Shown here: one piece after another, positions 15,872 through 40,976 of the stretch
Numbering within the stretch: the stretch's first letter is position 1
How the letters are laid out: each line of letters opens with the position of its first letter
Source of the DNA: Clostridia bacterium
GTDB taxonomy: Bacteria > Bacillota > Clostridia > Oscillospirales > CAG-272
Reading direction: 5' to 3'
NCBI GenBank assembly: GCA_017399105.1
Contig: JAFQEJ010000053.1
Span: 62,001-126,000, forward strand
Length of the DNA: 64,000 nt
Notes under the pieces: generated by a model
The model's input: the letters and a program-made list of their open reading frames with translations, nothing else
The model's database searches: none
What the model was told of the DNA's origin: nothing
Program-made: the position numbers and the translations under genes

Positions 15872-15928
15872 TTGAATCAGAATTCGAAAGGAGTGATCGC
15901 ACCAATCATAAGATATCATAGCGCCTGA
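15872..15928 (+). CDS. Possible 18-codon leader ORF crossing the glmS ribozyme cleavage site
   Basis: AGGAGG (15861-15866), part of the longer AAAGGAGG, precedes TTG 15872 by 5 bases. From there an open frame of 18 codons (MNQNSKGVIAPIIRYHSA) ends at TGA 15926-15928. The ribozyme cleavage site lies between 15920 and 15921, inside the AGC codon for the second-last residue. The ORF is too short for codon statistics and could be chance; the strong Shine-Dalgarno match is the main support. No protein function is proposed. Confidence 0.35.
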   Translation: MNQNSKGVIAPIIRYHSA

Positions 15929-16110
15929 TCCGTCGATATTCGGCGGATGACGAGGATGGGGAGTATCGATAATTCGGCGGATGCCCCACGGTCTTTAAAA
16001 TAATAGAGGTCGAAAGACTGCGAGCAAAAACGGAAGTGATTCCGCAACAGAGGCGCAGTTAATGATTAAATACAACAACTACCGGGTGAGCATTTCGGAT
16101 AATGTCCCCG
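15920..16110 (+). ncRNA. glmS glucosamine-6-phosphate-activated ribozyme
   Basis: The leader matches the conserved core of the glmS self-cleaving ribozyme: the cleavage site A|GCGCC at 15920/15921, then GACGAGGATGGGG, TATCGATAATTCGGCGGA and TGCCCC, which form the P1/P2 double-pseudoknot core. Downstream lie a P3-like pairing (GGTCTTT with AAAGACTGC) and a P4-like hairpin (CGGAA-GTGA-TTCCG). The 3' limit is approximate. In known cases glucosamine 6-phosphate acts as the cofactor for cleavage, after which the glmS mRNA is degraded, giving product feedback. Its place 5' of glmS agrees. Confidence 0.95.
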
Positions 16111-16159: not shown

Positions 16160-17986
16160 ATGTGCGGAATCGTAGGATATATTGGAAACAACAGAGCGGA
16201 TGAAATTCTGATTGAAGGACTTCGTAAGCTGGAATACAGAGGTTATGACTCATCAGGCATCGCCCTTGCGGATGCAGGTAAAGTGAAATGCATCAAAACC
16301 AAGGGCCGTATCGATGTGCTCGCAGAAAAGGTGGGCGACGGTTATGCAGACGCAGTTTGCGGCATAGGTCATACACGCTGGGCAACTCATGGTGAACCTT
16401 CTGACAGAAATTCGCATCCTCATACAAGCTGTGACGGTAAGGTTACGCTTGTACATAACGGAATTATTGAAAATTACATTAAGCTGAAACGTGAGCTCAC
16501 CGAGAAGGGTATCACATTTAAGTCGGAAACCGACACCGAATGTGCTGTCAATCTCATTGCCGCTCTCTATGACGGAAATCCCAAAGATACACTTCTTCGT
16601 GCCATGGAGATGCTTACAGGCTCGTATGCATTTGCTGTTATTTTCTCCGATCATCCTTATACACTCTACGCGGTTAAAAAGGACAGTCCCTTGATTCTCG
16701 GCGTCGGAGAGGGAGAAAATTTCATTGCATCTGATATCCCCGCCATTTTAAAGTGGACTCGCAGGTATATCGTTCTGAATGAAGGCGAAATCGCGGAGGT
16801 TAAACGCGATTCCATTCACATTGTTGATCGGCACAGAAATCCGATTAATCGCGAAATTGAGCATGTGGAATGGAATGTGGGTGATGCCGAGAAGAGCGGA
16901 TTTCCTCACTTCATGCTGAAAGAAATCTTTGAACAGCCATCAGCACTCAAAGCCACAATCTCGCCGAGAATTAACAACGGTAAAGTTAACTTTTCGGATG
17001 AGGGATTGACAGCGGAAATAGCAGAAAGAATCGAGACAATCCATATCGTTGCATGCGGAAGTGCTCTGCATACTGGTATCATCGGAAAAACGCTGATTGA
17101 GCGTCTTGCAGGTATTCCTGTCGATTATGAGATTGCATCCGAATTCCGCTATCGCGATCCTATCATCAAAAAGAATGAGCTTGTGCTTCTGATTTCACAG
17201 TCAGGCGAAACTGCTGATACACTGGCAGCACTCCGTCTGGCGAAAGAACGCGGCGCGCTCACTGTCGCAATTGTCAATGTGGTCGGTTCTTCCATAGCTC
17301 GAGAGGCTGATATTTCGCTCTTCACGCATGCCGGTCCTGAAATCGCAGTTGCTACGACAAAGGCTTATTCAGCTCAGGTCGCCATGATGGAGCTTCTTGC
17401 CATATATTTTGCTCAGATAAAGAGGACGCTTCCCCCCGAGCGAATAGCACAGCTTTTAAACGACCTTACCAGTCTTCCTTCTCAGGTCGAGAACATTCTT
17501 CCTCTTTATGAGACGAGCAGAGAACTGGCAGAGCATATCTCAGCCAATGCGCACGTATTTTTCATTGGACGAGGTCTCGATTACTGTGTCGCACATGAAG
17601 GCTCACTGAAGCTGAAAGAGATTTCGTACATTCACAGTGAGGCATATGCAGCAGGCGAACTGAAGCACGGCACGATTTCCCTGGTATCCACCGGAACACC
17701 TGTTATCGCAATCGCCACTCAGCGTGATGTATTCGATAAGATGGTCAGCAATATCAAAGAAGTAAAGTGCCGAGGTGCATTTGTTTTGCTCATTACCCGT
17801 AAAGGCTGGTATGATGAAAGTGACAGCTACGCCGATCAGGTAATTGAACTTCCGGAAGCAGAAAGCTTATTCATGCCTTCTCTTGTTGCGGTTATATGCC
17901 AGATTCTGGCTTATAATACCGCTGATATCATGGGCTGTGACATCGATAAGCCGAGAAATCTTGCTAAATCCGTTACTGTTGAATGA
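16160..17986 (+). CDS. glmS: Glutamine-fructose-6-phosphate aminotransferase (isomerizing)
   Basis: GlmS (608 residues) makes glucosamine 6-phosphate from fructose 6-phosphate and glutamine, the first step to UDP-GlcNAc and the cell wall. The class II glutaminase domain begins with the nucleophile Cys2 (MCGIVGYIG) and includes RKLEYRGYDSSGIA, GHTRWATHGEPSDRNSHPH and HNGIIENY. Two SIS isomerase domains follow, with ACGSALHTG and SQSGETADTLAAL in the first, and GRGLDYCVAHEGSLKLKE and SEAYAAGELKHGTI in the second. The end DKPRNLAKSVTVE is the conserved C-tail. AAAGGAG lies 10 bases before the ATG. Expression is controlled by the ribozyme in the leader. Confidence 0.97.
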   Translation: MCGIVGYIGNNRADEILIEGLRKLEYRGYDSSGIALADAGKVKCIKTKGRIDVLAEKVGDGYADAVCGIGHTRWATHGEPSDRNSHPHTSCDGKVTLVHNGIIENYIKLKRELTEKGITFKSETDTECAVNLIAALYDGNPKDTLLRAMEMLTGSYAFAVIFSDHPYTLYAVKKDSPLILGVGEGENFIASDIPAILKWTRRYIVLNEGEIAEVKRDSIHIVDRHRNPINREIEHVEWNVGDAEKSGFPHFMLKEIFEQPSALKATISPRINNGKVNFSDEGLTAEIAERIETIHIVACGSALHTGIIGKTLIERLAGIPVDYEIASEFRYRDPIIKKNELVLLISQSGETADTLAALRLAKERGALTVAIVNVVGSSIAREADISLFTHAGPEIAVATTKAYSAQVAMMELLAIYFAQIKRTLPPERIAQLLNDLTSLPSQVENILPLYETSRELAEHISANAHVFFIGRGLDYCVAHEGSLKLKEISYIHSEAYAAGELKHGTISLVSTGTPVIAIATQRDVFDKMVSNIKEVKCRGAFVLLITRKGWYDESDSYADQVIELPEAESLFMPSLVAVICQILAYNTADIMGCDIDKPRNLAKSVTVE

Positions 17987-18013: not shown

Positions 18014-18173
18014 AGGGCTGTCGCATTTACCATGCGTCAGCCCTTGGATATTGATTTGCCGGTCAAAGACCGTCATTTTAGGGCATTACATGCCCTAAAA
18101 ACAATCAATAAACGCCCCTAATTTTTCGATTTTGTGGCTTGGCTGTTATAAATTTTTCATTTGCAACAGCCCC
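18014..18173 (+). repeat. Five-hairpin repeat, copy 1 (after glmS)
   Basis: First of three related elements of about 160 bp (others at 23172 and 40814). Hairpins in order: GGGCTG-T-CGCAT paired with ATGCG-T-CAGCCC; CGGTC-AAA-GACCG; TTTTAGGGCA with TGCCCTAAAA; a degenerate fourth stem; and GGCTGTTATAAAT with ATTTGCAACAGCC. It ends CAGCCCC followed by TTTT. The element begins 27 bases after the glmS stop and is the most divergent copy. It may serve as the glmS terminator. The rest of the gap up to 18260 is AT-rich with no gene. Confidence 0.85.
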
Positions 18174-21075: not shown

Positions 21076-22186
21076 ACCCCTCAAGCTGGGCGGAGAAAAT
21101 CGTTTTCATGTCGTAAAACGAGCAGAGCTTCCTTTCAAGCAGACCGCTCTTCTTTACATTCTCGCAATTGTCCTTGCACTGGTTGCAGGAGGTATCTTCA
21201 TACTTTGTATAGGTCACAATCCTTTCAGCTTTTATGCTACGCTGATTTCCGGATGCTTCCGCTCCAAGCTGGCATTTGTTGCACTAATTAAGATCATCAT
21301 GCCGCTGCTGCTCACAACACTCGGCGTTGCAGTCGCATTTAAGATGAAATTCTGGAACATTGGTGCCGAGGGACAGTTTATTATGGGCGCAATCTGCGCG
21401 ACCTATTTTGCACTCTATTGGGGTGATATGCCGCATTTCCTGCTGGTCATTGTTATGATGCTTGCAGGCTTTGTCGGAGGCGGTATCTGGGGCTTGATTC
21501 CTGCATATTTCAAGTGTCGCTTCGATACTAACGAAACACTCTTGACACTGATGCTCAATTACATCGCACTATACATCGTTCAGTATCTTCGTGACGGTCC
21601 CTGGCGTGATCCCGCTGCCGGCGGATTTTTAAAGATTGCTAAGCATCCTGAAAGTGCATGGCTTGATAAGCTCTTTGGCATCGATATCACATGGGTTATT
21701 TGTATCATCCTTGTTGTTATCATGTTTATCTACCTCAGCTACACAAAGCAAGGTTACGAAATAGCGGTTGTAGGTGACAGCCACAATACCGCCCGTTATG
21801 CAGGCATGAATGTGAAGGGAATTATTCTTCGCACCATGTTTATCTCTGCCGCAGTCTGCGGACTTGCCGGTATGCTTCAGGTTACAGGTGATGCAACAAG
21901 CCATACGCTCACAATGGGTATTGCCAGCGGCGTCGGCTTCACTGCAATCATTGTCGCTTGGCTCGCAAAGCTTAATCCGTTTGGCATTCTCCTTGTCTCA
22001 ACCTTCTTTGGTATTCTCGACAAAGGTTCCGGAGTCGCGGAAAGTACCTTTGGACTTTCCTCGTCGGTTGCAGATGTATTGCAGGGAATCATTCTCTTTT
22101 TCATTCTTGGTCTTGACTTCTTCATTCGTTACAAGATTGTCATTTCCAAGAGCGAGCATGAAGAAACAAAGGAGGCAGCAAAATGA
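21068..22186 (+). CDS. ABC transporter permease (NupB/YufP-like)
   Basis: A membrane protein of 372 residues with about nine hydrophobic helices. It belongs to the branched-chain/ribose-type permease family used with BMP binding proteins: FKMKFWNIGAEGQFIMGAI near residue 90 is the cytoplasmic EAA-like segment that touches the ATPase, and DSHNTARYAGMNV occurs later. I place the start at ATG 21068, which has AGGAAGG 8 bases upstream and overlaps the stop of the ATPase gene; GTG 21059 in frame is less likely. It overlaps the next permease gene by ATGA. Confidence 0.9.
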   Translation: MNKPLKLGGENRFHVVKRAELPFKQTALLYILAIVLALVAGGIFILCIGHNPFSFYATLISGCFRSKLAFVALIKIIMPLLLTTLGVAVAFKMKFWNIGAEGQFIMGAICATYFALYWGDMPHFLLVIVMMLAGFVGGGIWGLIPAYFKCRFDTNETLLTLMLNYIALYIVQYLRDGPWRDPAAGGFLKIAKHPESAWLDKLFGIDITWVICIILVVIMFIYLSYTKQGYEIAVVGDSHNTARYAGMNVKGIILRTMFISAAVCGLAGMLQVTGDATSHTLTMGIASGVGFTAIIVAWLAKLNPFGILLVSTFFGILDKGSGVAESTFGLSSSVADVLQGIILFFILGLDFFIRYKIVISKSEHEETKEAAK

Positions 22187-23163
22187 ATACCATCATAAAC
22201 TTCCTCTTTGCTGCAATCAAAGCAGGCACCCCGCTGCTTCTCGGTACTACCGGTGAGATTATCACCGAAAAGTCGGGAAGCCTCAACCTTGGTGTCGAGG
22301 GTCTCATGTATATGGGAGCTTTTGCCGGTTTCTACGCCGGCTACAAAACCAACAGTGTCATTATTGCTGTGATTGCCTCTATGCTCATGGCAATGTTCGG
22401 TGCGCTGATATTTGCATTCCTGACAGTTACACTTCAGGCAAATCAGAATGTTACAGGCTTGACACTGACAATATTCGGATCCGGTCTTTCCATCTTCTTC
22501 GGACAGCAAATGATCAATAACGAGGGTGGAAAACCCAGTATGTCCGTAGATTTTATGGCAAAATTAGCAGAAGAGCCTCTACCTTTACTCGGAGATATCC
22601 CAGTAGTAGGAAAAATCCTCTTCTCCCACAATCCTCTTGTCTATCTCGCCGTTGTTATTGCGATCCTGGCATGGATTTACATCCGATTCACCAGAGCCGG
22701 TCTTAACATGCGTGCTGTGGGTGAAAATGCTGCTGCAGCAGATGCATCAGGCATCAATGTCAACCGTGTAAAGTATATGAACATACTCCTTGGCGGTGGT
22801 GTCTGCGGTATCGGCGGAGCCTATATTGCTATCATCAACAGCTACGGCGGATGGGATAACGGCTGTATAAACGGTCAAGGCTGGATTTCGGTGGCGCTGG
22901 TCATCTTCGCAAGCTGGTCGCCGGCAAAAGCTATTCTCGGCTCGCTGGTATTCGGCGCGTTCTCGGCGTTCCAGATTCGTGCAAATGAATTTGCAAGCGC
23001 ATTTCCGGCACTCAGCTTCCTTGCTGAGATTCCCAGCGCAATTTATGTTATGCTTCCGTTCCTGCTCACTGCGATCATTCTGATCTTTACATCAATTCGC
23101 GGAAAACGTGAAGGCGCACAGCCTGCGAACTGCGGCATCAACTACTATAGAGAAGAACGATAA
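22183..23163 (+). CDS. ABC transporter permease (NupC/YufQ-like)
   Basis: The second permease (326 residues, about eight helices), pairing with the preceding one as a heterodimer. The family motif EKSGSLNLGVEGLMYMGA near residues 27-44 and the segment AVGENAAAADASGINV near 180-195 match the NupC/YufQ group. It starts in a 4-base ATGA overlap with the first permease, so the two subunits are coupled. It ends the operon; the hairpin repeat copy 2 begins 8 bases later. Confidence 0.9.
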   Translation: MNTIINFLFAAIKAGTPLLLGTTGEIITEKSGSLNLGVEGLMYMGAFAGFYAGYKTNSVIIAVIASMLMAMFGALIFAFLTVTLQANQNVTGLTLTIFGSGLSIFFGQQMINNEGGKPSMSVDFMAKLAEEPLPLLGDIPVVGKILFSHNPLVYLAVVIAILAWIYIRFTRAGLNMRAVGENAAAADASGINVNRVKYMNILLGGGVCGIGGAYIAIINSYGGWDNGCINGQGWISVALVIFASWSPAKAILGSLVFGAFSAFQIRANEFASAFPALSFLAEIPSAIYVMLPFLLTAIILIFTSIRGKREGAQPANCGINYYREER

Positions 23164-23171
23164 AGAAGAAT

Positions 23172-23332
23172 AGGGCTGTCGCATTTGCAATGCGTCAGCC
23201 CCCTGATATTGATTTTGCCGGTCATAGACCGCCATTTCAGGGCATTTTTTGCCCTGAAGCCAATCAATATACGCCACAAAATCGAAAATTTTGTGGCTGG
23301 GCTGTTGCAAATTTTTCATTTGCAACAGCCCC
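23172..23332 (+). repeat. Five-hairpin repeat, copy 2 (after the BMP transporter operon)
   Basis: Most regular copy. Stems: GGGCTG-T-CGCATT with AATGCG-T-CAGCCC; CGGTC-ATA-GACCG; TTCAGGGCA with TGCCCTGAA; GCCACAAAAT-CGAAA-ATTTTGTGGC; and GGGCTGTTGCAAAT with ATTTGCAACAGCCC. TATTGATT and AATCAATA can enclose stems 2 and 3. Ends GGGCTGTCGCA and TGCAACAGCCC also form imperfect terminal inverted repeats, as in a MITE. It separates the plus-strand transporter operon from the convergent GNAT gene. Confidence 0.88.
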
Positions 23333-23341
23333 ATTTAAATA

Positions 23342-23779
23342 TTAATGTTTAATGTACATCTGTGTATATTCTAAATTCTCAAATCCACACCGACCGTACA
23401 GCCGCTTTACAGATTCATTGTCCGGTGAAATCTCAAGTCTGAAACGCGCCGCATTCTTGTAAAGCTTGGTCAGCTCACGTACCGCATCACCACCAAGCCC
23501 TTTTCCGCGGTATTCGGGTTTAATATAAAGCTCATCAATCCAAACGACCTCTCCGCCTGCTTCGTTGGAATATGTAATGGCAAGCAGTACAAAGCCAGCA
23601 ATAATATCATCTTTCTTGATCATATATGCTTCTGCAAAGGGCGTACCCTTTTCCAATAAATCTGCAGTCTTAATCATATGTGCCTCTGGAATCGAATGAA
23701 GTACCGCGTCGGAATTGTAAAAATTTTTATTCATCTCAAGGAATTCATTTCGATAGGAAGCGTTATATGAAACCAGCAT
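23342..23779 (-). CDS. GNAT family N-acetyltransferase
   Basis: A 145-residue acetyltransferase. The acetyl-CoA-binding motif A is clear: VVWIDELYIKPEYRGKGLGG, with R-G-K-G-L-G as the pyrophosphate loop, followed by the C-terminal LYGRCGFENLEY. The start at 23779 is chosen because GAGG lies 7 bases upstream and because it is one base past the stop of the methyltransferase gene; a longer frame would overlap that gene by 100 bases. The acceptor is unknown. Last gene of the minus-strand cluster ppx-ppk-methyltransferase-GNAT. Confidence 0.85.
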   Translation of the reverse strand: MLVSYNASYRNEFLEMNKNFYNSDAVLHSIPEAHMIKTADLLEKGTPFAEAYMIKKDDIIAGFVLLAITYSNEAGGEVVWIDELYIKPEYRGKGLGGDAVRELTKLYKNAARFRLEISPDNESVKRLYGRCGFENLEYTQMYIKH

Positions 23780-23780
23780 T

Positions 23781-24581
23781 TTAAGTCCTCTCATAGTTAT
23801 TTCTAAAAATTTCATAAGCCAGAATCGATGCTGCCGAAGCGGCGGAAAGGGCAGCAGGGAAGCGTCGTCCATAAGGCAGCTCAACAATCACATCGGAGAT
23901 GTCGAGCAATGGTTTTGTGATCCCTCGCTTTTCGCCGCCGACAATGAGCAGAAGCGGAACTTGCAATGAAACATCAAATAAAGGGGTTGAACGATCGGAT
24001 TTATCCGCAGCAGCGATAGTATAACCCTTTTCTTTCAGACATGAGGCAGCATCAAACAGATCAGCTGTATACATCTCAAAAAGCTCGGATGCACCTGCAG
24101 AAGCTCTGCAAACAACTCCTGCTGCACTCATCCAATTTCGAGGAGGCATGATTACAGCAGTCACGCCGGCTGCATAAAGAGATCGCAGAGCATAACCATA
24201 ATTATACGGATCTTCGATTCCATCAAGCATCACATAAAAGCCATTGTCCTTTATTTTATCGGATGTAAATTCATCGATCAAACGATCACTGCAGATTGCA
24301 ACAATACCACCGTGTGTTGAACCTACTGTAAGCGCATCAATATCAGTATTATCGGTATACTCGATCACAAAACCATGCATACCCGCCATACGCTTTAAAA
24401 AAGCAAGCTCACGGCTTTTGCTTTTGCACTTTTCCTGATCGAATAGAATCTTCTCAATTTTTCGATTGTTGACTCCGATTGAGCGTCCCTCTAATACAGC
24501 TTTTATGGAAATCATACCCTCCAGAATGTTGGAGGGTATAAATTTTTGTGATTCTTTTTTAATTTTGCTCATAGAGCTCAT
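23781..24581 (-). CDS. TrmH/SpoU-family RNA 2'-O-methyltransferase
   Basis: A 266-residue SPOUT methyltransferase. An N-terminal substrate-binding part (SIKAVLEGRSIGVNNRKIEKI) precedes the knotted SAM domain with motif 1 GIEDPYNYGYALRSLYAAG, motif 2 LLLIVGGEKRGI and motif 3 VELPYGRRFPAALSAASAAS. Motif 3 lacks the usual Ser-Leu-Asn-Val run, which may indicate a divergent target or activity. ATG 24581 overlaps the ppk stop (ATGA); ATG 24572 has GAGGT 9 bases upstream and is a good alternative. Inside the early coding region a 9-bp stem (TACCCTCCA/TGGAGGGTA) is present. The RNA target is unknown. Confidence 0.82.
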   Translation of the reverse strand: MSSMSKIKKESQKFIPSNILEGMISIKAVLEGRSIGVNNRKIEKILFDQEKCKSKSRELAFLKRMAGMHGFVIEYTDNTDIDALTVGSTHGGIVAICSDRLIDEFTSDKIKDNGFYVMLDGIEDPYNYGYALRSLYAAGVTAVIMPPRNWMSAAGVVCRASAGASELFEMYTADLFDAASCLKEKGYTIAAADKSDRSTPLFDVSLQVPLLLIVGGEKRGITKPLLDISDVIVELPYGRRFPAALSAASAASILAYEIFRNNYERT

Positions 24582-37693: not shown

Positions 37694-38596
37694 TTGGAAA
37701 TCTGTTACGGAAACATTTTTAATATTCAGCGCTTTTCTGTACATGACGGTCCCGGAGCAAGAACAACAGTATTTTTTAAAGGCTGTAATCTGCACTGTGT
37801 ATGGTGTCACAATCCTGAATCCATTCCATCCAAAGCTGTGATTGAATTTTATCCGCAGAAATGTATCGGTTGCGGCGAATGCTTTAAAGTTTGCACGCAC
37901 AAAGTGCATCTCATCGCACCTGACGGTGATCATCTTATCGACCGTCAAGCTTGCGAGGGATGCCTCACCTGTACCGATACCTGCTACGCCGGCGCACTTG
38001 CTCCGGTTGGCAGGAAGGTAACAGCTGAATATGTAGTGAAGCAAATTGAAACCGATATTCCATATTATCAGAGTTCAGGAGGCGGCGTAACCTTCTCAGG
38101 TGGAGAAGCGATGCTTCAGATTGAATTTCTCTCAAAACTTCTCACCGAATGCAGAAAAAAAGGAATTCATACCGCTGTCGATACAGCAGGAAATGTCCCG
38201 CGTGAGTATTTTGAAAAAATCCTCCCTGTCACCGATCTGTTTCTCTTTGACGTGAAGGCTGCTGACAGCGAGGTTCATAAGATGCTTACCGGAGTACATA
38301 ATGAACGAATTCTTTCCAATCTGTACTGGCTGGCAGATCAGGGAGCACGAATCTTTGTCCGTATCCCATTTGTTCCGTCACGCAACGGAAGCGAGATGGA
38401 AGCAATTGCCGATATCCTGTCCGAGATTAAGCCTGAGCTTGCTGAAGTTATCCCCTACCATAAGCTGGGCGCTGCCAAATATGCTGCTCTTGGTCTCATC
38501 GATCAATGCCATGACGAGTCCACTCCCTCTGATGAAGAGGTTGAAGAAGTACTTACTATTTTAAAAAACGCTGGTGTCAATGCCAGAAAAAGCTGA
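37694..38596 (+). CDS. Glycyl-radical enzyme activating protein (radical SAM)
   Basis: A 300-residue radical SAM enzyme that installs the glycyl radical on its partner. The SAM cluster motif is Cys31-x3-Cys35-x2-Cys38 in GCNLHCVWCHNPE. Two ferredoxin-type cluster motifs follow (CIGCGECFKVC and CEGCLTCTDTC), which mark activases of non-PFL glycyl-radical enzymes and are absent from classical PflA. SGGGVTFSGGEAMLQ is the conserved SAM-binding GGE region. The start is TTG 37694 with AGAGG 7 bases upstream. The target is the gene 25 bases downstream. Confidence 0.93.
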   Translation: MEICYGNIFNIQRFSVHDGPGARTTVFFKGCNLHCVWCHNPESIPSKAVIEFYPQKCIGCGECFKVCTHKVHLIAPDGDHLIDRQACEGCLTCTDTCYAGALAPVGRKVTAEYVVKQIETDIPYYQSSGGGVTFSGGEAMLQIEFLSKLLTECRKKGIHTAVDTAGNVPREYFEKILPVTDLFLFDVKAADSEVHKMLTGVHNERILSNLYWLADQGARIFVRIPFVPSRNGSEMEAIADILSEIKPELAEVIPYHKLGAAKYAALGLIDQCHDESTPSDEEVEEVLTILKNAGVNARKS

Positions 38597-38621
38597 TTCT
38601 ACCATAAAGGAGGCATATTTT

Positions 38622-40802
38622 ATGCTCGATACATCAAAGGTAGTTTTATCCCCTCTTTACAGAGACCGTATCAACGGTCTGCATGAAGACAAACTGAAGA
38701 TCAACGACATCAAGATGAAGCTCATCGGACATCTTAATTTTGACGACTGGGGTTTTGTCTATTATCCGGATTTCAAATTTGAAGCACGTCCGAATCATCC
38801 TTCAGGAATTGTCTGCGGATATCGCGCAATCGGTGAGCACATTCGCCGTTTTATGCATGAGATGCCGAAATATGTCAATGTTAACAGTGCACTCGGCGGT
38901 GCGTGGATCAAACCGATCACCGATTATGTCAACATCGGTATTGCCCCTGAGGATGATGTTCCCAAGGAACTGAAAGAATGCTGGCATAAATATCACACCT
39001 ATCCCGGATTCGCAGGTATGAATCACTGTGCAGGTGATATCAACATCGGTCTTGAGCTCGGATGGGGCGGATTACTTAAAAAGCTTCGTTATTACCGTGA
39101 ATTAAATAATCCCGCTGATCCCGCCTTCTATGATGGTGAAGAGGATGTCGTTCTCGGTATGCAGGAATGGATTGCAGGTGTTTCGAAAGAAGCAAGACGT
39201 ATGGCAGCCGAAGAAACAGATCCCGACAAGCATCAGAATCTTATTGAAATCGCGGAAATGAACGAGTGGCTGATCGAAAATCCTCCCCGCACACTTCGCG
39301 AAGCCTGCCAGTTTATCGCTCATTTCCAGACACTTGACCGTACATATTACGTGGGAGGCGCACTTGATCAGCTTGATGAAAAACTTCGCCCCTATTATGA
39401 GCGTGATGTCGCAGCAGGCATTCTTACCGATGACATGGCAGTTTGGTATATTGCCAGCGTATTCTTCAACGATACCCACTACTCTCAGATTGCCGGACTT
39501 ACCCCCGATGGCAGCCGTGATCTTACAAGCCGCATGAGCTTCATCATTCTTGATGCCATGCATGCAATCAAGATTCCGGTCAATATTGCTATCCGCGTCC
39601 ATGACGGTGTAAATAAAGAACTTCTTCGACGTTCGCTTGAGTATACCGTAGAAGATGGCACAGGCGTTGATTATTCCTGCAACATTGGTATTGAGCAGGG
39701 CTATAAAAAGAACGGATATCCTGAAGGACTCGCCCGAACCAGAATCAAGGTCGGTTGTAACTGGTGCTGTGTCTGTGGCCACGAATATCCACTCCAAGAC
39801 GTCACAAGAGCTAACATGGGCTTTGCACTCTACTGGGCGCTTCAGGACATCAGAAACGAATCTGAGCGCTCCACAGCACGTCTATTCGAGCTCTTCTGCA
39901 AGCACACACAGATTATCGTCGATTCTATCAAGCAGGGCTACGACCGTCATTATGAAATCATGGGACGCAACCGTCCCGAGGTGGTCTATAATCTCTTCAT
40001 GTACGGTCCTGTTGAGCGCGGTTTGAACTGCTCGGAAGGCGGCGTTGACATCCTCAACTTTAATATTGACGGTGTTGCACTCGCAACCGTTGCAGATTCT
40101 TTTGCAGCAATTGAGCAGCGCATAGAGAAAGAAGGCAGAATTACCTGGGATCAGATGTTTGAAGCACTCGATGCCAATTATGAAGGTTACGAAAACATCC
40201 GTCTCATGATGAAGAATATCAATCGTTTCGGTTCTCCCGACAGTCTTGCTGAGGACTGGGCATATAAGATTCGTGACTTTTATGTCTGGGCATGCAAGCA
40301 TGAAGGCACACCTAAACATCATCTCATGATAATCCCCGGCCTCTTCTCGCATGGCACTGTCGCTGAACTGGGCGCAAGACTTCCCGCTACCCCCAATGGA
40401 CGCAAGAACTACGAGCCGATTTCTCACTCCAACGAGCCTGATCCTGGTTTTGCTGCAGGTATCAATACCTTCGCTCCTACGTTGAAAGCGAACGCGGTTG
40501 CACAAGCTCAGCCCGGTTTCGGAAATTCTGCTCCCCTTCATCTCGATATTGATACCGATATGTTGAGTAAAGAGGGCGGTATTGATGCTCTCATCGCTCT
40601 AATTCATACTCACAATCACATGGGCGGCACACTCATCAATCTCAACTGTCTCACCGAGAAGAAACTTCTCGAGGCACATGAGGATCCCTCTAAGCACCCC
40701 GATCTGCTTGTACGTGTAACAGGCTACTCAGCCTTCTTTGCATCCCTCTCCAAAGACTACAGACAGCAGATTATTGACAGGTTCCTTTCGAAGAAGTATT
40801 AA
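38622..40802 (+). CDS. Glycyl-radical enzyme of unknown substrate (PFL-like)
   Basis: A 726-residue PFL-fold enzyme. The glycyl radical loop RVTGYSAFFASLSKDYRQQ is intact near the C-terminus with Gly701. The thiyl loop is unusual: GCNWCCVCGHEY has Cys379, 382, 383 and 385, whereas most dehydratase/lyase members read GCVE and PFL has a Cys-Cys pair. ATG 38622 is chosen because AAAGGAGG lies upstream and because a start at 38574 would overlap the activase stop. The operon with a beta-mannosidase suggests the substrate comes from mannoside breakdown; that is inference. Repeat copy 3 begins 11 bases after the stop. Confidence 0.88.
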   Translation: MLDTSKVVLSPLYRDRINGLHEDKLKINDIKMKLIGHLNFDDWGFVYYPDFKFEARPNHPSGIVCGYRAIGEHIRRFMHEMPKYVNVNSALGGAWIKPITDYVNIGIAPEDDVPKELKECWHKYHTYPGFAGMNHCAGDINIGLELGWGGLLKKLRYYRELNNPADPAFYDGEEDVVLGMQEWIAGVSKEARRMAAEETDPDKHQNLIEIAEMNEWLIENPPRTLREACQFIAHFQTLDRTYYVGGALDQLDEKLRPYYERDVAAGILTDDMAVWYIASVFFNDTHYSQIAGLTPDGSRDLTSRMSFIILDAMHAIKIPVNIAIRVHDGVNKELLRRSLEYTVEDGTGVDYSCNIGIEQGYKKNGYPEGLARTRIKVGCNWCCVCGHEYPLQDVTRANMGFALYWALQDIRNESERSTARLFELFCKHTQIIVDSIKQGYDRHYEIMGRNRPEVVYNLFMYGPVERGLNCSEGGVDILNFNIDGVALATVADSFAAIEQRIEKEGRITWDQMFEALDANYEGYENIRLMMKNINRFGSPDSLAEDWAYKIRDFYVWACKHEGTPKHHLMIIPGLFSHGTVAELGARLPATPNGRKNYEPISHSNEPDPGFAAGINTFAPTLKANAVAQAQPGFGNSAPLHLDIDTDMLSKEGGIDALIALIHTHNHMGGTLINLNCLTEKKLLEAHEDPSKHPDLLVRVTGYSAFFASLSKDYRQQIIDRFLSKKY

Positions 40803-40813
40803 TCCAAATCAAA

Positions 40814-40976
40814 AGGGACTGTCGCATTGGCATGCGACAGTCCCTTGAATACTGTTTTTGCCGGTCAAAGACCGCCATTTCAGGGCGTTTTACGCCCTGA
40901 AACCAATCAATATACGCCACAAAATCGAAAATTTTGTGGCTGGGCTGTTGTAAATGTTCCATTTGCAACAGCCCCC
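40814..40976 (+). repeat. Five-hairpin repeat, copy 3 (after the glycyl-radical enzyme)
   Basis: Stem 1 is perfect for 15 bp here: AAGGGACTGTCGCAT with ATGCGACAGTCCCTT. Stem 2 is CGGTC-AAA-GACCG; stem 3 TTTCAGGGCGT-TTT-ACGCCCTGAAA; stem 4 GCCACAAAAT-CGAAA-ATTTTGTGGC; stem 5 GGGCTGTTGTAAATG with CATTTGCAACAGCCC (one G-T pair). Several stem positions differ from copies 1 and 2 with compensating changes on the other arm. The 5' arm of the enclosing TATTGATT pairing is changed to ATACTGTT. Confidence 0.88.

Follow-up and report, generated by a model that had tools for sequence, protein, structure and literature searches.

A mobile, terminator-like non-coding element that probably replaces terminator stem-loops in gut Clostridia

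REP, BIME and REPIN sequences are high-copy extragenic palindromes with proposed roles in termination and mRNA stabilisation (PMC3733652). The element described here, present in three copies in a 64,000-nucleotide stretch of a Clostridia genome (the window), is likewise a high-copy extragenic palindrome, but it measures 160–210 bp across the family instead of 20–40 bp, has a conserved junction core and appears to replace terminators. The GTAG or CGTC tag of REP/REPIN was absent from all element ends read by eye, these being GGG(A)CTG and CAGCCC in the window's genome (G000) and GGGGGTGAG and GCAGCCCC in genome G378, and G000, the most populated genome, has no RAYT (Y1) transposase. With MITEs, the origin considered possible in the initial annotation, the element has in common its non-coding nature, high copy number, imperfect inverted ends and recent bursts. 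That suggestion held for the mobility and the inverted ends, but a strict MITE is not supported: target-site duplications were not seen, each end is itself a hairpin, the stem-loop at the target is lost, and no related transposase was found in a search for the Y1 family.

Group IIC introns are mobile and insert behind intrinsic terminators, leaving the terminator in place; they carry a ribozyme and, in most cases, a reverse transcriptase. The element is also mobile and also targets terminator hairpins, but it appears to replace the terminator and carries neither ribozyme nor reverse transcriptase, and none of its copies matched a group II intron in Rfam. The uptake-sequence terminators of Haemophilus and Neisseria are pairs of ~10-nt signals; they were reportedly described by Kingsford et al. 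2007. Here the likeness lies in a repeated sequence common to many intrinsic terminators, while the difference is that the element is a composite unit with a core, swapped in whole. In the part of the literature covered, no title or abstract was found on a mobile element replacing terminators.

Architecture, copies and distribution

All three copies claimed in the initial annotation were present in the window, its starts including one extra flanking A relative to limits set at the first G of stem 1 and the last C of stem 5 (Table 1), and the paired changes it had named in the stems were read correctly. Its five consecutive hairpins were found as well, with the refinement that the interval between stems 1 and 4 is a three-way junction holding its hairpins 2 and 3. 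The layout of copy 2 was derived from folding and the later covariance analysis. Upstream of glmS the window also contains a glmS ribozyme riboswitch (15909–16070), which was its sole Rfam match at gathering level.

Table 1. Window coordinates of the element copies, their parts and the adjacent genes
Feature	Position	Strand	Remarks
Element copy 2 (main finding)	23173..23332	+	begins 10 nt past the ABC permease stop, ends 10 nt ahead of GNAT
End hairpin H1, copy 2	23173..23201		GGGCTGtCGCAT..ATGCGtCAGCCC, one T-T mismatch
Three-way junction, copy 2	23206..23270		closing stem P2, ATATTGATT (23206-23214) paired with AATCAATAT (23262-23270), around h2 (23216-23234) and h3 (23235-23259)
Hairpin h4, copy 2	23273..23297		GCCACAAAAT..ATTTTGTGGC
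End hairpin H5, copy 2	23299..23331		GGGCTGTTGCAAAT..ATTTGCAACAGCCC
ABC permease gene	22183-23163	+	upstream of copy 2
GNAT gene	23342-23887	-	convergent to copy 2
Element copy 1	18015..18173	+	diverged copy, 29 nt past the glmS stop codon
glmS	16160-17986	+	upstream of copy 1
Element copy 3	40815..40976	+	GGGACTG subfamily, behind the PFL-like gene
PFL-like glycyl-radical enzyme gene	38574-40802	+	upstream of copy 3
H1 of copy 3, terminator-like hairpin	40813..40846	-	15 pairs, T-rich tail
H5 of copy 3, terminator-like hairpin	40942..40974	+	15 pairs, T-rich tail

The general layout given by the covariance model runs from an end hairpin through the three-way junction with its two hairpins and one to two more hairpins to the other end hairpin. 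Between genera the letters vary widely while this layout is kept, often with an extra hairpin ahead of H5. The junction is the most sequence-conserved part: TTG...CATTT is recurrent and, at the foot of h3, three T-A pairs are invariant across genera. Several genera have an h3 loop of ~25–45 nt instead of 3–5 nt (L150, L163, L164, L167, L169), and in G060 two added hairpins, GTGAGAATGAT..ATCATTCTCAC and AAAGAATTG..CAATTCTTT, are nested between the junction and the next hairpin (L217 and L224). In one copy (L120) the junction has collapsed into a single long palindrome.

The window's genome (2.9 Mb, 57 contigs) contains ~75 near-full-length copies. BLAST scored 40 of them at E values of 1e-48 or lower, a 22-base core pattern with at most 3 mismatches occurred at 73 places and its reversed control at 0, and the covariance model gave 78 matches at E < 1e-26, a few of which are interrupted by contig ends. 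The repeat family is real and lies far beyond chance. A covariance-model search for further copies in this genome and its relatives, as proposed in the initial annotation, was positive in both: a survey model (R3) built from 40 copies matched at least 40 of 395 genomes and at least 18 of the 71 genera of the bacterial family, these counts being lower bounds because seven candidates were scored per genome. Related elements occur in MAGs called Oscillospiraceae or Clostridia, some of them linked to goat or roe deer colon. In G378, most of the 21 copies are near-identical and lie in unique flanks, indicating recent spread and bearing out the mobility of the element. A very different member, of a second subfamily, is present in G000 (L096, 1509–1674), with H1 GCTTCAAGTGC..GCACTTGAAGC and P2 GGATATTTCTC/GAGAAATATC, its H5 being common to a normal copy.

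Terminator-like ends and sister-species sites

With gene neighbours assigned by simple ORF calling, 49 of the 74 two-neighbour copies in the window's genome had convergent genes on either side and 2 had divergent ones, with roughly half of the stop-codon distances at 20 nt or less. At least four A were present within 8 nt before H1 in 55 of 59 copies (background 14% for A), and at least four T within 8 nt behind H5, again in 55 of 59. At both ends the family has the sequence expected of a bidirectional intrinsic terminator, a G+C-rich hairpin followed by a T-tract. A simple terminator rule recognised copy 3 on both strands but neither end of copies 1 and 2, whose end hairpins are weaker. The flanks and end hairpins have the anatomy of a bidirectional intrinsic terminator, from which termination activity can be predicted.

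The window's genus is represented by its own genome alone, and empty sites were sought in other genera. Genus g61 has sister species, in which insertion flank pieces were mapped and the sites fetched, giving 11 comparisons beyond the first. At 11 of the 12 sites compared, the element-free sister had an ordinary intrinsic terminator. At the first of them, found by protein search (L183 vs L184/L185), G162 carries the element and G418 and G060 the ordinary terminator, with the further flank conserved. The swap was base-exact, right to the foot of the stem, at three sites (L159/L211 vs L252, L219 vs L241 and L222 vs L259): G418 reads GTTACAAAA-AGCTGCCGATTTTTTCAAATCGGCAG-CTTTTTTAGTTGGGAATGC where G060 and G162 have identical flanks and the element instead of the stem-loop, and G205 reads CAAACAAAAAA-CGCTTTGCTATCGCTTGATAGCAAAGCG-TTTTTTTTAACA where G378 carries the element. 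It was near-exact at L228 vs L243. The sisters of L213, L225, L229, L220, L217 and L224 also have a terminator there, with junctions that are less exact or incompletely visible; at L220 and L217 unmatched sequence adjoins the element. Only at L218, where synteny is lost on one side, was no terminator evident in the sisters. Since a terminator is expected behind most genes, its mere presence at an empty site says little, and the weight lies on the few base-exact swaps. The evidence for replacement comes from a few exact sites in a different genus of the family, and the copies of the window's genome presumably arrived in the same way. Two elements with one common end hairpin were found both head to head (L144, G227) and tail to tail (L096, G000), as expected if one element had replaced the end hairpin of another.

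No consistent target-site duplication was found by eye in recent copies of G378, G205 and G060, their flanks being A-rich on the left and T-rich on the right. Of 14 genomes tested for the Y1 transposase (PF01797), 6 had it; G000 (96.8% complete), the best-populated genome, gave 0 matches, which speaks against this transposase as the driver. No other mobilising gene came to light. Plasmid, phage and viral collections gave no match to the element, hence no vehicle was seen.

Paired changes and the mode of spread

The covariation reported in the initial annotation proved to be massive. In the A5 alignment, composed mainly of the window's genome plus three copies from two relatives, 48 of 66 pairs had double changes, and across genera 59 of 66 pairs had changed on both sides, with a covariation score of 0.541 compared to 0.157 after shuffling and at most 0.105 with slid partners, in an alignment fitted to the model and leaning towards it. 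The paired changes had been taken as a sign of selection on an RNA or cruciform structure; that by themselves they show selection on RNA is not supported, given rare wobble, unbiased orientation and inverted loops. The structured-RNA rival, a regulatory or mRNA-stabilising 3' UTR element transcribed from one strand and kept by selection on its fold, would agree with the conserved fold, with covariation in all helices and with the position directly behind genes. However, a functional RNA of one strand is expected to have more G-U than A-C on that strand, which the counts on the plus strand do not show, either in the window's genome (47 G-T vs 59 A-C of 2393 cells) or across genera (21 vs 39 of 1239), G-U making up ~2% of cells. 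Orientation relative to co-directional genes was unbiased in the window's genome (10 vs 13), the element is present in dozens of copies, the few neighbouring genes looked at were unrelated, and at gathering and relaxed Rfam thresholds no copy reached the gathering score of any family, with only chance-level or long-palindrome matches below it. The H5 loops occurred in both orientations (GTTCC 14/GGAAC 3, TTTTC 7/GAAAA 6, GAAAC 6/GTTTC 2), as did loops of H1 (TTGC/GCAA) and h3 (GTTTTAC/GTAAAAC), and 38 of the 44 five-base H5 loops fell in reverse-complement pairs, compared to an average of 18.6 over 2000 column shuffles, the highest of which reached 30. Template switching between DNA arms yields an inverted loop and compensatory changes in one event, a combination that one study ranked above any other support for template switching in DNA replication and found to be extremely rare in RNA genes (PMC8794818). 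The inverted loops, together with the collapsed palindrome of L120, therefore indicate that the compensatory changes are at least partly a mutational product. A constrained fold is still argued for by the cross-genus covariation of P2, whose arms are ~50 nt apart, and by the conserved junction letters. RNA from one strand is unlikely as the explanation, and the structured-RNA rival as a whole is very hard to credit.

Template switching might also account for the spread itself, if nascent strands stalled at terminators re-primed through microhomology of the A- and T-tracts and copied a longer hairpin array with no dedicated enzyme. The junctions do coincide with A/T tracts common to all terminators, and the inverted loops mark template switching at the palindromes of the element. 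The two sister-species versions of an orthologous ordinary terminator (L238/L239; G060:C49, G162:C10) likewise differ in what looks like an inverted loop and in a 3-nt repeat, as in the element hairpins. This mechanism leaves unexplained, however, the amplification of one 160–210-nt unit with a conserved junction over 18 genera and the conservation of the junction letters, including the three invariant T-A pairs, and we consider it quite improbable. Somewhat less improbable, but still unlikely, is an ordinary MITE- or REP-like element inserted beside the terminator by a conventional transposase, with later deletion of the redundant terminator, so that the swap merely looks exact. In favor of this rival, the repeat is intergenic, palindromic and high in copy number, its inverted ends are imperfect, and the old flank is partly changed at several sites (L220, L217). 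Against it stand fresh near-identical copies in which nothing of the old stem remains and the flanks are unchanged as far as the A- and T-tracts (L219/L241, L159/L252, L222/L259), and the lack of target-site duplication in ~17 recent copies read by eye.

We favor, as the probable explanation, a mobile, bidirectional, terminator-like non-coding DNA element of gut Clostridia that replaces terminator stem-loops. Each end is a near-perfect G+C-rich hairpin; with an A-tract preceding H1 and a T-tract following H5, the unit would act as an intrinsic terminator on both strands, and the conserved three-way junction of DNA hairpins could be the recognition site of a putative trans-acting factor. During spread, the old terminator would keep its A-tract and T-tract but lose its stem-loop, and the element would come to sit between the two tracts; insertion between convergent genes would be tolerated, and copies would pile up there, because the element supplies a working terminator. 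Template switching between the arms as the DNA replicates would account, at least in part, for the near-perfect state of the palindromes and would flip the loops too. A further, tentative suggestion is a dedicated system for recognising DNA hairpins and swapping whole stem-loops at a single step, with no duplication of the target, which would make terminators mobile, interchangeable cassettes. If the favored explanation is right, a selfish yet harmless element is overwriting intrinsic terminators throughout a bacterial family while taking over their job. Bacterial repeats would then have a new kind of target and, perhaps, a new mode of movement. The element would also be a clean case in which compensatory changes in hairpins come at least partly from DNA template switching and not from RNA selection, a warning for covariation-based RNA discovery.

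Partial forms of the element were observed as well. The window's genome has at least 12 solo hairpins, AAAGGGACTGTCGCA..TGCGACAGTCCCTTT, with the H1 sequence (L032–L050) and several derivatives with internal deletions, both apparently intergenic. The HtrA-like gene of genus g76 ends, in G245, in a solo hairpin corresponding to H1 of the G271 element (L203/L204); past this gene the sequences of the two genomes diverge from the element onwards, so that copies may be points of rearrangement.
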